Origin: SAR202 cluster bacterium bin22 | GTDB lineage: Bacteria; Chloroflexota; Dehalococcoidia; Lucifugimonadales; UBA3495 | Length of the DNA stretch: 64,000 nt | Direction of reading: 5' to 3' | NCBI GenBank assembly: GCA_002238505.1 | Contig: MPMM01000005.1 | Location: forward strand, 1-64,000 | Part shown: in pieces, positions 20,736 to 29,651 of the stretch | Position numbering within the stretch: position 1 is the first letter of the stretch | How the letters are laid out: every line of letters begins with the position of its first letter | The notes under the pieces: model-generated | Told to the model about the DNA's origin: nothing | Databases searched by the model: none | The model's input: the letters and a program-made list of their open reading frames with translations, nothing else | Translations under genes and position numbers: made by a program

Positions 20736-22217
20736 ATGTTCTTTGTCCCCAAGGTGATGAGCACCCAGCACCCTGACAATGCTACTCCCTCGCCCTTTGC
20801 CGACGAAGCCGGTGTAATCCGTGGCGACGGCGAGGTACAGGAAGCCGCAGATATTTTTGCCCTGGGCTGCAACGAGCAGATGTGGGACTCGGAGGGCAAG
20901 GACGCCGACAACCAGGTGGTCCGCAAGCTGCTCACCGGCTACCCCGACTTCTTCCAGAGCCAGCGCCGCCTCGGCAAGGACGTGGTCCTGACCCTGCGGG
21001 TGCCCAACCCGGGAATCGAGCGGGACATGAGGAAGTCCATGGTGGAGGCGCTGCAGAGCGTCCCGTCGGCCTGGGACATGGCCCGCAACTTTTATGGGGA
21101 CGGGACCGATGAGACCGCTCCCATACAGGAGGTTATCCTGCCCTTTACCACCTCGGCCGAGGAACTGGCGCTGGTGGAGGCCTATTACCGGCAGGTCATC
21201 GTCGGGCAGGAAGCCCACACCCTGCTGGGAGACAAGCTGGTAAAGGACTGGGTGGGCGAGTTCTACCCCAAGCAGTTACGCGTCATCCCCCTGATTGAGG
21301 ACATGGAGCACCTCTTCTACTGCGATCTCATAGTGGAAGAATACCTTCGGGGGCGAGACCTGCCGGCCCAGCGGGTTTTCCTGGCCCGCAGCGACCCTGC
21401 GCTCAACTACGGTATCGTGGGAGCCGAACTGGTGCTGAAGGTGGGGCTGTCACGGCTTTACGACCTGGAAAAACGGCTGGGAATACCCCTGTATCCGATA
21501 ATTGGAGCCGGGTCGGTGCCCTTCCGCGGCCACCTGACGCCGGTCAACATTGAGCGCGCCTTAACGGAGTACCCTAGCGCCCACACCTTCACCGTCCAAT
21601 CGGCCTTCAAGTATGACTACGACAAGGAGACGGTCCGCAACGGCATTGCCCAGCTGCGCGCCCACGAGCGGAAGGAACCGGTATCCATAGACCAGGAACG
21701 GGCCCGCGCCATAATTGACAAGACCACGGCCGAGTACCAGAACCAGGTACGGCGGCTGATCGGCACAATCAGCGCCGCATCGCGCTACGTTCCCCGCCGG
21801 CGGGATCGCAAGCTGCATGTTGGCCTCTTCGGCTACGGGCGCACGCTGGATGGAGTGGGGGACGAAGTGACCCTGCCCCGGGCCATCGGGTTTGCCGCAT
21901 CCATGTACTCCATTGGCATTCCTCCGGAACTGCTGGGGCTGACGGCCCTGGACCGGGACGACATAGCATTCCTCCGCGAGGTTTATCCCAGCCTGGATGA
22001 TGACCTGCGGGCTGCCCTGCGCTTCACCAACGAGAACAGCGTCAGGGAATTGCTGGGTGACGAATATTTTGGACTGGTGGGCAAGTTTACCGACGAGATA
22101 GACCGGGTCCACGAGGGTCTGACCAGCGCTATCCGCGCGGGGATGGAAACCCATACCCATGTCAACATTTCCCAGTACGTGGGCGAGGCGGGACAACTTC
22201 GGAAGTTTCTGGGGTAG
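20736..22217 (+). CDS. ppcA: Phosphoenolpyruvate carboxylase, archaeal type
   Basis: This enzyme adds bicarbonate to PEP to give oxaloacetate, feeding the TCA cycle and aspartate. At 493 residues it matches the short archaeal-type family (about 500) and not the ~900-residue bacterial type. VMSTQHPDNA at the N-terminus, LRVPNPGIERDM, IPLIEDMEHLFYCD, and RSDPALNYG are recognisable family segments. GAGG lies seven bases before the ATG. The small enzyme is known in archaea and a minority of bacteria. It stands as a single gene behind its own regulatory region. Confidence 0.92.
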   Translation: MFFVPKVMSTQHPDNATPSPFADEAGVIRGDGEVQEAADIFALGCNEQMWDSEGKDADNQVVRKLLTGYPDFFQSQRRLGKDVVLTLRVPNPGIERDMRKSMVEALQSVPSAWDMARNFYGDGTDETAPIQEVILPFTTSAEELALVEAYYRQVIVGQEAHTLLGDKLVKDWVGEFYPKQLRVIPLIEDMEHLFYCDLIVEEYLRGRDLPAQRVFLARSDPALNYGIVGAELVLKVGLSRLYDLEKRLGIPLYPIIGAGSVPFRGHLTPVNIERALTEYPSAHTFTVQSAFKYDYDKETVRNGIAQLRAHERKEPVSIDQERARAIIDKTTAEYQNQVRRLIGTISAASRYVPRRRDRKLHVGLFGYGRTLDGVGDEVTLPRAIGFAASMYSIGIPPELLGLTALDRDDIAFLREVYPSLDDDLRAALRFTNENSVRELLGDEYFGLVGKFTDEIDRVHEGLTSAIRAGMETHTHVNISQYVGEAGQLRKFLG

Positions 22218-22519: not shown

Positions 22520-23782
22520 ATGAAAGTCTCCTTTTTCCACCTGATGCCTTACCAGCATTTGCCCCAGGACTTTGAATCGAAACACCACAGCGCGTGGGTG
22601 GATCTGCCCAACGAGAATTTCGACCCCGAACTGGGTCAGCAGCACTACGCCGACTACCTGGATGAGCTGCAGTTTGCCGACCAGATGGGCTTTGACGGGG
22701 TGTGCGTTAACGAGCATCACAACAACGCCTACGGCATTATGCCCTCGCCCAACCTGATTGCGTCGGTGCTGTCGCGTTCCACCTCACGGGCGGCCCTGGT
22801 GGTGCTGGGCAACAGCCTGGCCCTGTACCAGCCGCCGTTGCGGGTGGCGGAAGAGATGGCCATGCTGGACCTGATGAGCGGCGGCCGCCTGGTGGCCGGA
22901 TTTCCCGTTGGGACTTCCATGGACACCACCTTCTCTTACGGTCAGGTGCCCGTCACGCTGAGGGAGAAGCACACCGAGGCCCACGACCTGATTATGAAAG
23001 CCTGGTCGGAGCGAGAGCCCTTCATATTCAACGGCAAGTACAACAAGCTGCGGTACGTCAGCATCTGGCCCCGCCCCCTGCAGCAGCCCCATCCGCCGGT
23101 GTGGATCCCGGGCAGCGGCAGCCTGGAAACATGGGACTGGGTGCTGGACCGGGACTACGTTTACTGCTACCTGAGCTATTTTGGCTACCTGAGGGGCAAA
23201 CGGGTGGTGGACGGGTTCTGGAACCGGGTAGCCGAGAGGGGCGTTGACGACAACCCCTACCGGCTGGGCTTCCTGCAGCTGGTCTGCGTCTCGGAAACCG
23301 ACGAGTCGGCCAAGGAGGAATACCAGGACCACGTCAAGTACTTCTACCAGAAGATGCTGCGCATTCACGCTCCCTTTGCCGAGGCCCCGGGCTACCGCTC
23401 CATCGCGTCGGTGCGGGAGTCGGTGCGGCCCCAGATTGGGGAAGAAGCGCAGAAGGCAGCGGGAGAACTCGAGTGGGAAGACTACGTTGAGCAGGGCCAC
23501 GTTATCGCAGGCAGCGCCGAAACCGTGCGGCAGCGGCTGACCGAGGCCATCGAACTGTTGCGGGTGGGACACCTGATGTGCCTGCTACACATAGGCACCA
23601 TGCCCAAGGAACTGACCCTGAAGAACACGGAACTCTTCGCCAGGGAAGTAATGCCTCACATCAAGGACATCTGGGGCGAGTACGAAGACCCCTGGTGGCC
23701 CGAAGGGGTGGCCCAGGACGAGGTACCCGCGGCGGGATCGCTGGTGACCAGGGAGAGAGCGCTGGAGGGCGGGCTAAGCTAA
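22520..23782 (+). CDS. LLM-class flavin-dependent oxidoreductase
   Basis: This 420-residue luciferase-like monooxygenase has the TIM-barrel pattern of bacterial luciferase alpha-like proteins: DGVCVNEHHNNAYG, the LDLMSGGRLVAGFPVG segment, RPLQQPHPPVWIPGSGS near the flavin site. It probably uses reduced FMN to oxygenate an organic substrate, which is unknown. The ATG at 22520 follows GGGAGAG. It ends 12 bases before the UGA-containing peroxiredoxin-like gene, which has its own good ribosome site, so the two probably form an operon. Confidence 0.9.
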   Translation: MKVSFFHLMPYQHLPQDFESKHHSAWVDLPNENFDPELGQQHYADYLDELQFADQMGFDGVCVNEHHNNAYGIMPSPNLIASVLSRSTSRAALVVLGNSLALYQPPLRVAEEMAMLDLMSGGRLVAGFPVGTSMDTTFSYGQVPVTLREKHTEAHDLIMKAWSEREPFIFNGKYNKLRYVSIWPRPLQQPHPPVWIPGSGSLETWDWVLDRDYVYCYLSYFGYLRGKRVVDGFWNRVAERGVDDNPYRLGFLQLVCVSETDESAKEEYQDHVKYFYQKMLRIHAPFAEAPGYRSIASVRESVRPQIGEEAQKAAGELEWEDYVEQGHVIAGSAETVRQRLTEAIELLRVGHLMCLLHIGTMPKELTLKNTELFAREVMPHIKDIWGEYEDPWWPEGVAQDEVPAAGSLVTRERALEGGLS

Positions 23783-23794
23783 AGGAGGCGAACT

Positions 23795-24295
23795 ATGGAG
23801 AAACTGCAACAGGGAGACCGGTTCCCATCACTGACGCTTAACCTGGTCGGCGGCGGCCAGGTGCGAATTCCGGAGGATGTGCCCGGGCGCTATGCGGCGG
23901 TGCTGTTTTACCGGGGTCACTGGTGACCCTACTGCATGCGGCAGTTGGCCGCGTGGGAAGAAAAGAAGGCCGAACTGGAAGGCATGGAAGCCACCATCTA
24001 CGCAGTCAGTTGCGACACGCTGGAGCAGGCCACTGAAGTTGTAGGCAAGGGCTTGACCTTCCCGGTTGCCTACGGCGCGACCAGCGAGGATGGCGACAAG
24101 ATTGGCGGCTGGTGGTCGGATGACCATGATGGGTATATCCAGCCATCGGAGTTTCTGCTGGGTCGGGGCGGCGTGGTGCTGGGCGCCATGTACGCGTCGG
24201 GGCCGGTGGGCCGCATGGGAGCCGATGAAGCCGTGCGGGCCATCACCAACCGCGAGCGGCGCAGGTTGGAGCAGGAGGCCGAGCGAGGCAGCTGA
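23795..24295 (+). CDS. Peroxiredoxin-like selenoprotein (Sec encoded by UGA 23924-23926)
   Basis: Read with UGA as selenocysteine this is a complete 166-residue AhpC/TSA-type thioredoxin-fold protein. AAAGGAGG precedes the ATG. The frame runs FYRGHW-U-PYCMRQLAAW, where the family has FYRGxWCPYC; the UGA is thus exactly at the first, peroxidatic-type Cys (residue 44), giving a UxxC motif. The frame continues without another stop to FLLGRGGVVLGAMYASGPVGRM and a natural end at 24293. An 8-base stem-loop lies just downstream of the UGA (see next entry). The likely role is thiol-dependent peroxide reduction or disulfide exchange. A Cys-to-stop mutation is the alternative, but the intact flanking frame argues against it. 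Confidence 0.85.
23935..23955 (+). promoter_or_regulatory. Candidate bacterial SECIS stem-loop
   Basis: CATGCGGC (23935-23942) pairs with GCCGCGTG (23948-23955) over all eight positions, one of them a G-U pair, with the loop AGTTG. The loop begins 17 bases after the UGA, within the distance known for bacterial SECIS elements, and contains the G followed by U found in known examples. The element overlaps codons M-R-Q-L-A-A-W. Function with SelB is inferred. Confidence 0.65.
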
Positions 24296-26768: not shown

Positions 26769-29651
26769 TTACCCCGCATCCACCCGCACCGCGCAGACCT
26801 TGTACTCGGGAATCATGGTGTCGGGATCGTAGGCCGAATTGGTCAGGAAGTTGGCGGCCGACTCGGAGAGTTTGACGAAGGGGATGAAAATTTCCCCGGC
26901 GCGCATCCGGTCGGTGAACAGGGCCCGGCCGGTAAGTTCGCCCCGTCGGGAGGTGACACGTATGGCCTGTCCGTCGGCAATGCCAAACTTCTCCCCATCG
27001 GAGGGGTTGATGGAAACCTCGAGGTCGGGGGAACGGGCCAGAAGGCCTGGCACCCGGCGGGTCATGGTGCCGCCGTGCCAGTGGTAGAGAACCCGCCCCG
27101 TGTTCAGGATGAGGGGGTAACGCCGGCTGGGGCGCTCGTCGGACAGGGGCCCCTGCTCGTAGCCGATAAACCGGGCCCGGGGGCCACGGGGGAAGGAGTC
27201 GGCGTACAGATAGGGAGTGCCGGGGTGGTCGGGAGAAGGGCAGGGCCATTGAATGCCTCCCTCTTTTTCCAGGCGGTCGTAGCTGATGCCGGACAGAATG
27301 GGCGTCAGGCGGGCCATTTCATCGAAGATCTCCGAAGGATGGCTGTAGGTGAACTGTTCCTCTAAAGGCAAGTCCAGCTTGCGGCACATCCGGCGGCCCA
27401 GGTCGCAGATTATCTCCCAGTCGGGACGGCTCCGGCCCCGGGGTTCCACCGCCTTGCGGATGCGCTGGACACGGCGTTCGCTGTTGGTAAAGGTGCCGTC
27501 CTTCTCGGCAAAACTGGTGGCGGGCAGCACTACGTCGGCAATCTGGGCCGTCTCATGCAGGAATATATCCTGCACCACCAGGAACTCCAGCTTGTTGAAG
27601 AGTTCGGCGGCTTCGTTGAGGTCCGGTTCGCTGAGCAGGGGATTTTCGCCGGTGATGTACATGGCCTTGATACCGAAGTCCTCCGCGATGGAACGGACGA
27701 TCTCGGTAATGACCAGGCCCCGCACCCCGGGCAGCGGTACGCCTCCCCAGGCGTCCTCAAACTTGTCCATTACCTCCTGGCGATAGCCCTGGTATCCCGG
27801 CATGTTGTCGGGAATGCAGCCGGCGTCGCCGCAACCCTGGACATTGTTCTGCCCCCGAAGGGGAGACACGCCTGAACCGGGCCGCCCCAGTTGTCCCGTA
27901 ACCAGGGCCAGGTTCAGAAGGCCGTGGGCGTTGGGGGTGCCGTTGGTGTGCTGGGTGATGCCCATGCCCCAGATGAGGCAGGAGCCGGCATACTCCCTCA
28001 CCCCCTGCCCCTCTCCCTGGGGTAGAGGGGAGTCGGATGGCTGTCCCGAGGGGGCGAAGGGGACCCGGTCAGGGATGGGAGGCCTGGCGTACATGCGGGC
28101 CGCAAGCCGCAGGTCACGGGCAGAAACGCCGGTGATTTCTTCGACCCGTTCGGGGGGGTAATTCTCAACTATTCTTTTCCAGTCCTCGAAGCCCTCGGTG
28201 CGGTCGGCTACGAAGGACTGGTCCACCAGGCCCTCGTCCAGGATTATTCTGGCCAGGCCATTCATCAGGGCCACGTCGGTACCAGGGTAGGGACGGAGCC
28301 AGAGGTCGGCGTAGTCGCACATATCGATGCGGCGGGGGTTGATGACAATGAGCTTCGCTCCCCGCTCCACCACGGCCCGGCGCATGCGGGAGGCGGCCAC
28401 GGGATGGTTGGAAGTGGGGTCGCAGCCGATTACCACCAGGCAACCGGCATTCTCGTAGTCGGTGTAGGAGTTACTGGTGGCACCGCTGCCCAGGGTGGCC
28501 AGCATGGCCTCCACCGAGGGGGAGTGGCACAGGCGGGTGCAGTGGTCGATGTTGTTGGTCTGCATGAGCAGACGGGCAAACTTCTGCTGAATGTACCCGT
28601 CTTCGTTGGTGGCCTTGGCGGAACAGAGAGTGCCAAAGTTGTCGTTCCGGTAGTTGACGAGCCGGTCGGTTATCAGGTCGAGGGCTTCGTCCCAGGAGGC
28701 CTCGCGGAATTCTCCGTTCTCCCGAATCAGGGGCGTGGTAAGGCGGTCGGGATGGTGGACGAAGGAGGCGCCGAAGCGTCCCTTCACGCACAGCATGCCG
28801 GCACTGGAGCGGTTGTCGGGATCGTCCTCCACCGCCACGATTTCGTCGCCCTGGCTTATTTGCATTTTGATGCCGCAACCCACGCCGCAGTAGGGGCAGG
28901 TGGTGGAGACGGTCTTTTCCGCCCTCACCCCCGGACCCTCTGCCAAGGGGAGAGGGGGGACGGAAGACTGTTCTTCGAGAGCGATGGACTGGGAGATGGT
29001 GGTTTTGGGCTGGATGGCCCCGGTAGGGCAGACGGACAGGCACTGGCCGCAGGTAGTGCAGATGGACTCGAGCAGGGGCTTGTCCATGAAAGCGCCAATG
29101 CGGCCGGAGGAACCAGCGCCCAGCAAATCGATGGCGCCGATGAACTGGTGCTCTTCCTGGCAGGCATTTACGCAGCGAGCGCACAGGATGCAGGACTCCA
29201 TGCCGATGTTGAAGACGGGGTTGCTGGTGTCCGTCTCTTCCCGTTCCCTGGCCTGCCAGCGGGAGCCGTCAATGCCGTGTTGCCGGGCAGCGCGGGTCAA
29301 CTGGCCGTACTGGCCTTCGCCGCGGATGGCGGAGGTTACCACTGGCTGGGCGGGTTTCTCGGAGGGAAGCATGGCCAGGGTCAGTTCCAGCACTCCGGAG
29401 CGGATACGCTGGACCGCGGGGGTGTCGGTGCGAACAACCATGCCGTCGGCGGCGGGTACCGAGCAGGAAGCGGGAAGGCCGCGCATACCTTCAATCTGGA
29501 CCAGGCAGGTGCGGCAAGCGCCGATGGCCTTCATGTCGGGGTCTTTGCAAAGCTGGGGGAGGTAGGTTGCGGAAGCGTTGACGGCATCCAGAACGGAAGA
29601 ACCGTCGGGAACCTGGACCGCGCTGTCATTGATGGTGATGGAGATGGACAT
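26769..29651 (-). CDS. fdhA: Formate dehydrogenase catalytic subunit (molybdopterin, Cys type)
   Basis: This 960-residue iron-sulfur molybdoenzyme would oxidise formate or reduce CO2. An N-terminal 2Fe-2S domain (Cys35, 46, 49, 63) is followed by CILCARCVNACQE and CTTCGQCLSVCP 4Fe-4S motifs, then TCPYCGVGCG, where the molybdopterin domain begins. The metal ligand is Cys, in HCTRLCHSPSV, where many relatives carry selenocysteine. The layout matches soluble NAD-linked FdhA; NuoF/NuoE-like subunits lie 4 kb away on the same strand. Two palindromic repeats are inserted in frame, giving PPLPLAEGPGVRAE and a ~27-residue segment with SPLPQGEGQGVRE. Confidence 0.93.
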   Translation of the reverse strand: MSISITINDSAVQVPDGSSVLDAVNASATYLPQLCKDPDMKAIGACRTCLVQIEGMRGLPASCSVPAADGMVVRTDTPAVQRIRSGVLELTLAMLPSEKPAQPVVTSAIRGEGQYGQLTRAARQHGIDGSRWQAREREETDTSNPVFNIGMESCILCARCVNACQEEHQFIGAIDLLGAGSSGRIGAFMDKPLLESICTTCGQCLSVCPTGAIQPKTTISQSIALEEQSSVPPLPLAEGPGVRAEKTVSTTCPYCGVGCGIKMQISQGDEIVAVEDDPDNRSSAGMLCVKGRFGASFVHHPDRLTTPLIRENGEFREASWDEALDLITDRLVNYRNDNFGTLCSAKATNEDGYIQQKFARLLMQTNNIDHCTRLCHSPSVEAMLATLGSGATSNSYTDYENAGCLVVIGCDPTSNHPVAASRMRRAVVERGAKLIVINPRRIDMCDYADLWLRPYPGTDVALMNGLARIILDEGLVDQSFVADRTEGFEDWKRIVENYPPERVEEITGVSARDLRLAARMYARPPIPDRVPFAPSGQPSDSPLPQGEGQGVREYAGSCLIWGMGITQHTNGTPNAHGLLNLALVTGQLGRPGSGVSPLRGQNNVQGCGDAGCIPDNMPGYQGYRQEVMDKFEDAWGGVPLPGVRGLVITEIVRSIAEDFGIKAMYITGENPLLSEPDLNEAAELFNKLEFLVVQDIFLHETAQIADVVLPATSFAEKDGTFTNSERRVQRIRKAVEPRGRSRPDWEIICDLGRRMCRKLDLPLEEQFTYSHPSEIFDEMARLTPILSGISYDRLEKEGGIQWPCPSPDHPGTPYLYADSFPRGPRARFIGYEQGPLSDERPSRRYPLILNTGRVLYHWHGGTMTRRVPGLLARSPDLEVSINPSDGEKFGIADGQAIRVTSRRGELTGRALFTDRMRAGEIFIPFVKLSESAANFLTNSAYDPDTMIPEYKVCAVRVDAG
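27995..28075. repeat. In-frame repeat insertion in fdhA (second)
   Basis: The stretch contains CCCTCACCCCCTGCCCCTCT and its palindromic counterpart and encodes an extra Pro/Gly/Ser-rich segment around residues 525-552. The same CCCTCACCCCC...CCCCTCTCCC element occurs between genes near 58072 and 58321. It keeps the reading frame. Confidence 0.6.
28920..28965. repeat. In-frame repeat insertion in fdhA (first)
   Basis: GCCCTCACCCCCGGACCCTC followed by its palindromic half encodes PPLPLAEGPGVRA at about residues 229-244, in the linker just before the TCPYCGVGCG cluster motif. It is the same repeat family as at 58072 and 58321. Confidence 0.65.

Follow-up and report, generated by a model that had tools for sequence, protein, structure and literature searches.

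A further UxxC-type peroxiredoxin-like selenoprotein gene, predicted in a SAR202 cluster bacterium

Selenoproteins of the peroxiredoxin-like (Prx-like) kind have been predicted from ocean metagenomes since 2005. A 'Prx-like protein' with a UxxC site, in which U is selenocysteine (Sec), was described from Sargasso Sea data (PMC1088965), 225 sequences of Prx-like 1 (pfam00578) were counted in the Global Ocean Sampling survey (PMC2398784), and the UxxC Prx-like selenoprotein is listed elsewhere as 'Prx-like thiol:disulfide oxidoreductase' (PMC13188914, Table 1). Chloroflexota are not named in the two marine selenoproteome papers (PMC1088965, PMC2398784). Here, we describe a gene of this kind in SAR202 cluster bacterium bin22 (assembly GCA_002238505.1; 4.39 Mb, 97% complete), a genome whose nearest named relatives are Dehalococcoidia/Chloroflexota metagenome-assembled genomes (MAGs). 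The window, by which we mean the whole 64,000-nucleotide stretch of DNA that was analysed, comes from contig MPMM01000005.1 (C4 in our numbering). Judged by its sequence, the predicted protein belongs to the Prx-like UxxC family: as in the published members, an AhpC/TSA domain (PF00578) carries Sec as the first residue of UxxC, where peroxiredoxins have TxxC or TxxU, and Cys homologues exist (PMC1088965, PMC2398784, PMC13188914), a likeness of domain and motif. The kind of protein is already described, and the window gene is an additional, strongly supported instance of it; these data open no new kind of biology.

The gene lies among the following features of the window.

20736-22217, plus strand: upstream gene for a PEPcase_2-type phosphoenolpyruvate carboxylase, kept in relatives L054 and L055
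22520..23782, plus strand: gene for a luciferase-like (LLM class) flavin oxidoreductase, ending 12 nt upstream of the ATG
23781..23788, plus strand: Shine-Dalgarno sequence AAAGGAGG, 6 nt before the ATG, with GGAGG kept in relatives L053-L055
23795..24295, plus strand: Sec-containing peroxiredoxin-like gene as predicted (AhpC/TSA fold, UxxC), 166 aa, terminal stop TGA
23924..23926, plus strand: predicted Sec44 codon, an in-frame TGA shared by independent assemblies
23933..23935, plus strand: TGC codon of Cys47, an invariant residue and the C of the UxxC site
23935..23955, plus strand: predicted bacterial SECIS hairpin, with an 8-bp stem (23935-23942/23948-23955) and the loop AGUUG (23943-23947)

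The reading frame begins with the ATG at 23795, contains its sole internal TGA at 23924-23926 and terminates at 24293-24295 with a TGA that is the true stop; several relatives end nearby with TAA or TAG. AAAGGAGG overlaps the stop codon of the upstream gene (23780-23782). The single in-frame UGA, the natural ends and the ribosome site that an earlier note on this DNA had described were all confirmed at these positions. The read-through product is MEKLQQGDRFPSLTLNL...VLFYRGHW-U-PYCMRQLAAWEEKK...GRMGADEAVRAITNRERRRLEQEAERGS, in which the internal UGA has the active-site context RGHW-U-PYC. Gene callers cut the protein at the UGA, so that a conserved redox enzyme of the SAR202/Dehalococcoidia type is easily missed in annotation. 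A plasmid comparison returned no match.

The complete selenoprotein machinery, for which the earlier note had proposed a search, is present in the source genome: selA (541.7 bits; curated cut-off, 267.9), selB (348.3 bits; cut-off, 242.25), selD (385.6 bits; cut-off, 125) and the tRNA-Sec gene selC (67.5 bits), which ARAGORN reports as tRNA-SeC with the anticodon tca (UCA). The selD gene contains one internal TGA.

G000:C57:40142-41065 (L019), minus strand: selD, itself a UGA gene (HCAG-U-AAK)

The TGA in HCAG-U-AAK is at the canonical Sec position of SelD, and a different hairpin, GGACCUG-GUA-CAGGUCC, lies further downstream of it. Across the 34 genomes with a homologue of the Prx-like gene, selA was found in 26 of the 28 that carry UGA, compared with 1 of the 6 that carry other codons only (Fisher P value, 0.0004). 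The two UGA carriers lacking selA, G137 and G212, are fragmented assemblies; selB scores above the cut-off in both, and tRNA-Sec is present in G137. G023, a Cys carrier that lacks selA, has both selB and tRNA-Sec, so that Sec-using genomes can carry a Cys form.

A search of 393 genomes of the class (E value up to 1e-10) found homologues in 34, and 17 loci from named organisms were also recovered. The alignment, another of the checks that had been proposed, revealed UGA or Cys at position 44: every one of the 17 named loci has TGA there, as do most class-level loci; five (L026, L028, L038, L045 and L050) have TGC or TGT, and L047 has TAC. Independent Dehalococcoidia/SAR202-type Chloroflexota assemblies retain TGA, and more distant homologues carry Cys. 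As expected of a selenoprotein, the in-frame UGA is conserved at a redox-active position for which Cys homologues exist. It is scarcely credible that the gene is dead or that a sequencing or assembly error has hidden a TGC or TGT codon. MAG assemblies do contain errors, and TGA is one base from either Cys codon; however, many independently assembled genomes, with protein identity as low as approximately 35%, have TGA at this codon, which excludes chance or sequencing error. Furthermore, on either side of the UGA, most differences between the window and L053-L055 are in the third position of codons, which is the pattern of a translated gene; in L053, the differences from the window at the three codon positions number 8, 5 and 18 before the UGA and 10, 8 and 46 after it. 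Conservation after the UGA extends to the nucleotide level, the codon and the next 32 nt being identical in the window and L053-L055.

Two loci carry multiple copies. In L032 (1501-2517), the first of two tandem Prx-like copies has UGA and the second has TCA (Ser) at the same codon, with the loop AAUUA; the second copy may have lost its Sec site. Three distant AhpC-like copies in L049 (133-1920) all have UGA, followed by a different hairpin of the CUC-GUG-GAG type.

The predicted hairpin in the window starts 16 nt after the UGA, within published bacterial limits, and nothing in it falls outside the bacterial SECIS model (PMC13188914, Fig. 2 legend). What stands out against that model is how little the AGUUR loop and its fixed spacing vary among genes of the source genome and its relatives. 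A 5-bp stem with the loop G arises in 27% of synonymous (codon-preserving) shuffles of the window, and the energy of the hairpin alone (z, -0.6) was rejected as evidence; searching the region against Rfam turned up no SECIS, the single match being implausible and below threshold. The window hairpin alone is unremarkable given its codons, and the case for a SECIS element therefore rests on comparison. Across the alignment of 37 UGA homologues, 90% of the cells of the 5-bp core form pairs, although such counts overstate the number of independent events because the homologues are related. The covariation score, 0.272, exceeds those of both shuffles (0.122 ± 0.022) and slid partners (0.105 at most). 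At least 4 inner bp and the loop G are kept in 28 of the 37 UGA homologues and in none of seven non-UGA copies, and the stem is absent at that exact place in the other nine UGA homologues. The Leu codon of the loop is TTR (TTA or TTG) in 33 of the 37, compared with a TTR share of 7.5% among the Leu codons of five window genes.

These results also bear on whether the UGA is a real stop, with re-initiation at the ATG at 23936 (an open reading frame of 119 aa), or is decoded by a near-cognate tRNA, e.g., tRNA-Trp. An ATG does lie four codons after the UGA, but it encodes Met48, which is not conserved, most homologues having other residues there, and the Pfam AhpC-TSA match (residues 7-128; E value, 2e-15) runs unbroken across the UGA. 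With the full Sec machinery in the genome and the downstream hairpin conserved only together with UGA, both forms of this explanation are very improbable. Instead, the UGA at 23924-23926 is almost certainly read through as selenocysteine. We consider it very probable (roughly 0.9) that this is a genuine selenoprotein gene in which SelB, acting at the hairpin, delivers Sec at the UGA, the product being an AhpC/TSA-fold protein of 166 residues whose active site reads W-Sec-P-Y-Cys. The basis is computed: the conserved UGA, with Cys at the homologous codon in other copies, the complete Sec machinery and the covarying predicted hairpin, which together support the claim of a true selenoprotein in the earlier note, as well as the fold and the conserved UxxC. 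In the mechanism that we propose, SelB would bind the hairpin 16 nt after the UGA and bring Sec-tRNA(Sec) to the codon at 23924.

The AlphaFold2 model of the protein has a confidently predicted peroxiredoxin/thioredoxin fold (pLDDT, 92.5; pTM, 0.88). The structures closest to it are the peroxiredoxins Bcp and AhpC, with a TM-score to the query of up to 0.81, and the modelled fold is that of a peroxiredoxin. In the predicted model, position 44 just precedes the first active-site helix (45-56). Among 27 homologues, no variation is seen at Arg40, Gly41, Trp43 or Cys47. Alignment to a Sulfolobus 1-Cys peroxiredoxin (6q5v) places PGDFTPVC over RGHWUPYC, so that Pro is matched by Arg40, Thr by Sec44, the peroxidatic Cys by Cys47 and the catalytic Arg by Gln116; the canonical peroxiredoxin motif PxxxT(S)xxC with its catalytic Arg is not found in the window protein. 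The earlier note had placed Sec at the first catalytic Cys of the family. Sec44 does open a CxxC-type site, but the residue aligns with the peroxiredoxin Thr, and with Cys47 at the peroxidatic position, the label of thiol peroxidase is less well supported than the selenoprotein claim. The protein could be a selenoprotein that is mechanistically a true peroxiredoxin, i.e., a peroxidase in which the usual position takes the peroxidatic role, as its AhpC-TSA domain and its best structural matches would suggest. We regard this as unlikely, given the residues aligned with Pro, Thr and the catalytic Arg of 6q5v, and given that known Sec peroxiredoxins are TxxU, whereas the window protein is UxxC (PMC1088965).

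Two other groups resemble the protein in part. PrxU, the Sec peroxiredoxin with TxxU, has the fold and domain family in common with it, and the window protein matches NCBIfam NF040737 weakly, far below its cut-off, but its Sec lies three residues earlier, at the Thr position. The PRX-like2 type, a CxxC peroxiredoxin-like subfamily (PMC3514251), combines a peroxiredoxin-like sequence and a thioredoxin CxxC with absence of the peroxiredoxin catalytic triad; the window protein differs in having Sec for the first Cys. By analogy, in the UxxC protein proposed here, Sec44, placed where the first active-site helix begins, would attack a peroxide or a disulfide as a selenolate. Cys47 would then resolve the selenenyl intermediate, releasing Sec44 via an Se-S bond, and a thioredoxin-type reductant would presumably reopen that bond. 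A peroxide and a protein disulfide are about equally probable as the natural substrate.

Further UGA genes of the source genome were found through a weak match to the Prx-like query.

G000:C53:22040-23801 (L070, L082-L084), minus strand: three tandem TlpA/AhpC-like genes, in each of which a UxxC site contains the UGA and an AGUUG hairpin follows at 16 nt

Their hairpins share the AGUUG loop and the distance of the Prx-like gene, on 6-bp stems of other sequence (CCGCCG/CGGCGG and CUGCCG/CGGCAG). The pattern TGA N6 TGY N7 AGTTR, searched for in the genome, gave nine matches, compared with two in a backward control; stems of 6 to 8 bp are present at the matches in the Prx-like gene and the three C53 genes, and of 0 to 1 bp at the five others. 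Together with selD, these four genes bring the UGA genes of selenoprotein type in this genome to at least five. It is possible, though we hold it at somewhat below even odds, that SelB of these Chloroflexota recognises a near-uniform SECIS (AGUUR, 16 nt) common to different redox selenoprotein genes; if so, new selenoproteins of the lineage could be found from the DNA pattern and stem alone. More broadly, the data point to Sec use in thiol-redox enzymes across the Dehalococcoidia/SAR202-type group, with a simple SECIS signature that can be tested.

Of the other in-frame TGA candidates with redox-like motifs in the window, the one with the longest upstream frame (46825, minus strand), which is antisense to a luciferase-like gene, was rejected, as was a selenium role for the formate dehydrogenase, which has Cys.

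26769-29651, minus strand: formate dehydrogenase alpha-like gene, with Cys (RLCHSPSV) and not Sec, though the genome decodes Sec

The earlier note had also placed the gene in an operon with the LLM flavin oxidoreductase. With 12 nt between them, the two genes are likely co-transcribed. The adjacency, however, is kept only in L053-L055 (90 to 97% identity), apart from a 35% relative in L060, and is absent in most other UGA homologues. With conservation limited to the nearest relatives, a functional link would be local at best, and to assign the Prx-like protein a role with its flavin oxidoreductase neighbour is guesswork. On the downstream side of the Prx-like gene, eight other loci (L058, L060, L061, L063, L064, L066, L067 and L068) share a different conserved neighbour; the copies in L060 and L067, the two that were scanned, match domains of the MDMPI (mycothiol maleylpyruvate isomerase) and SCP2 types.
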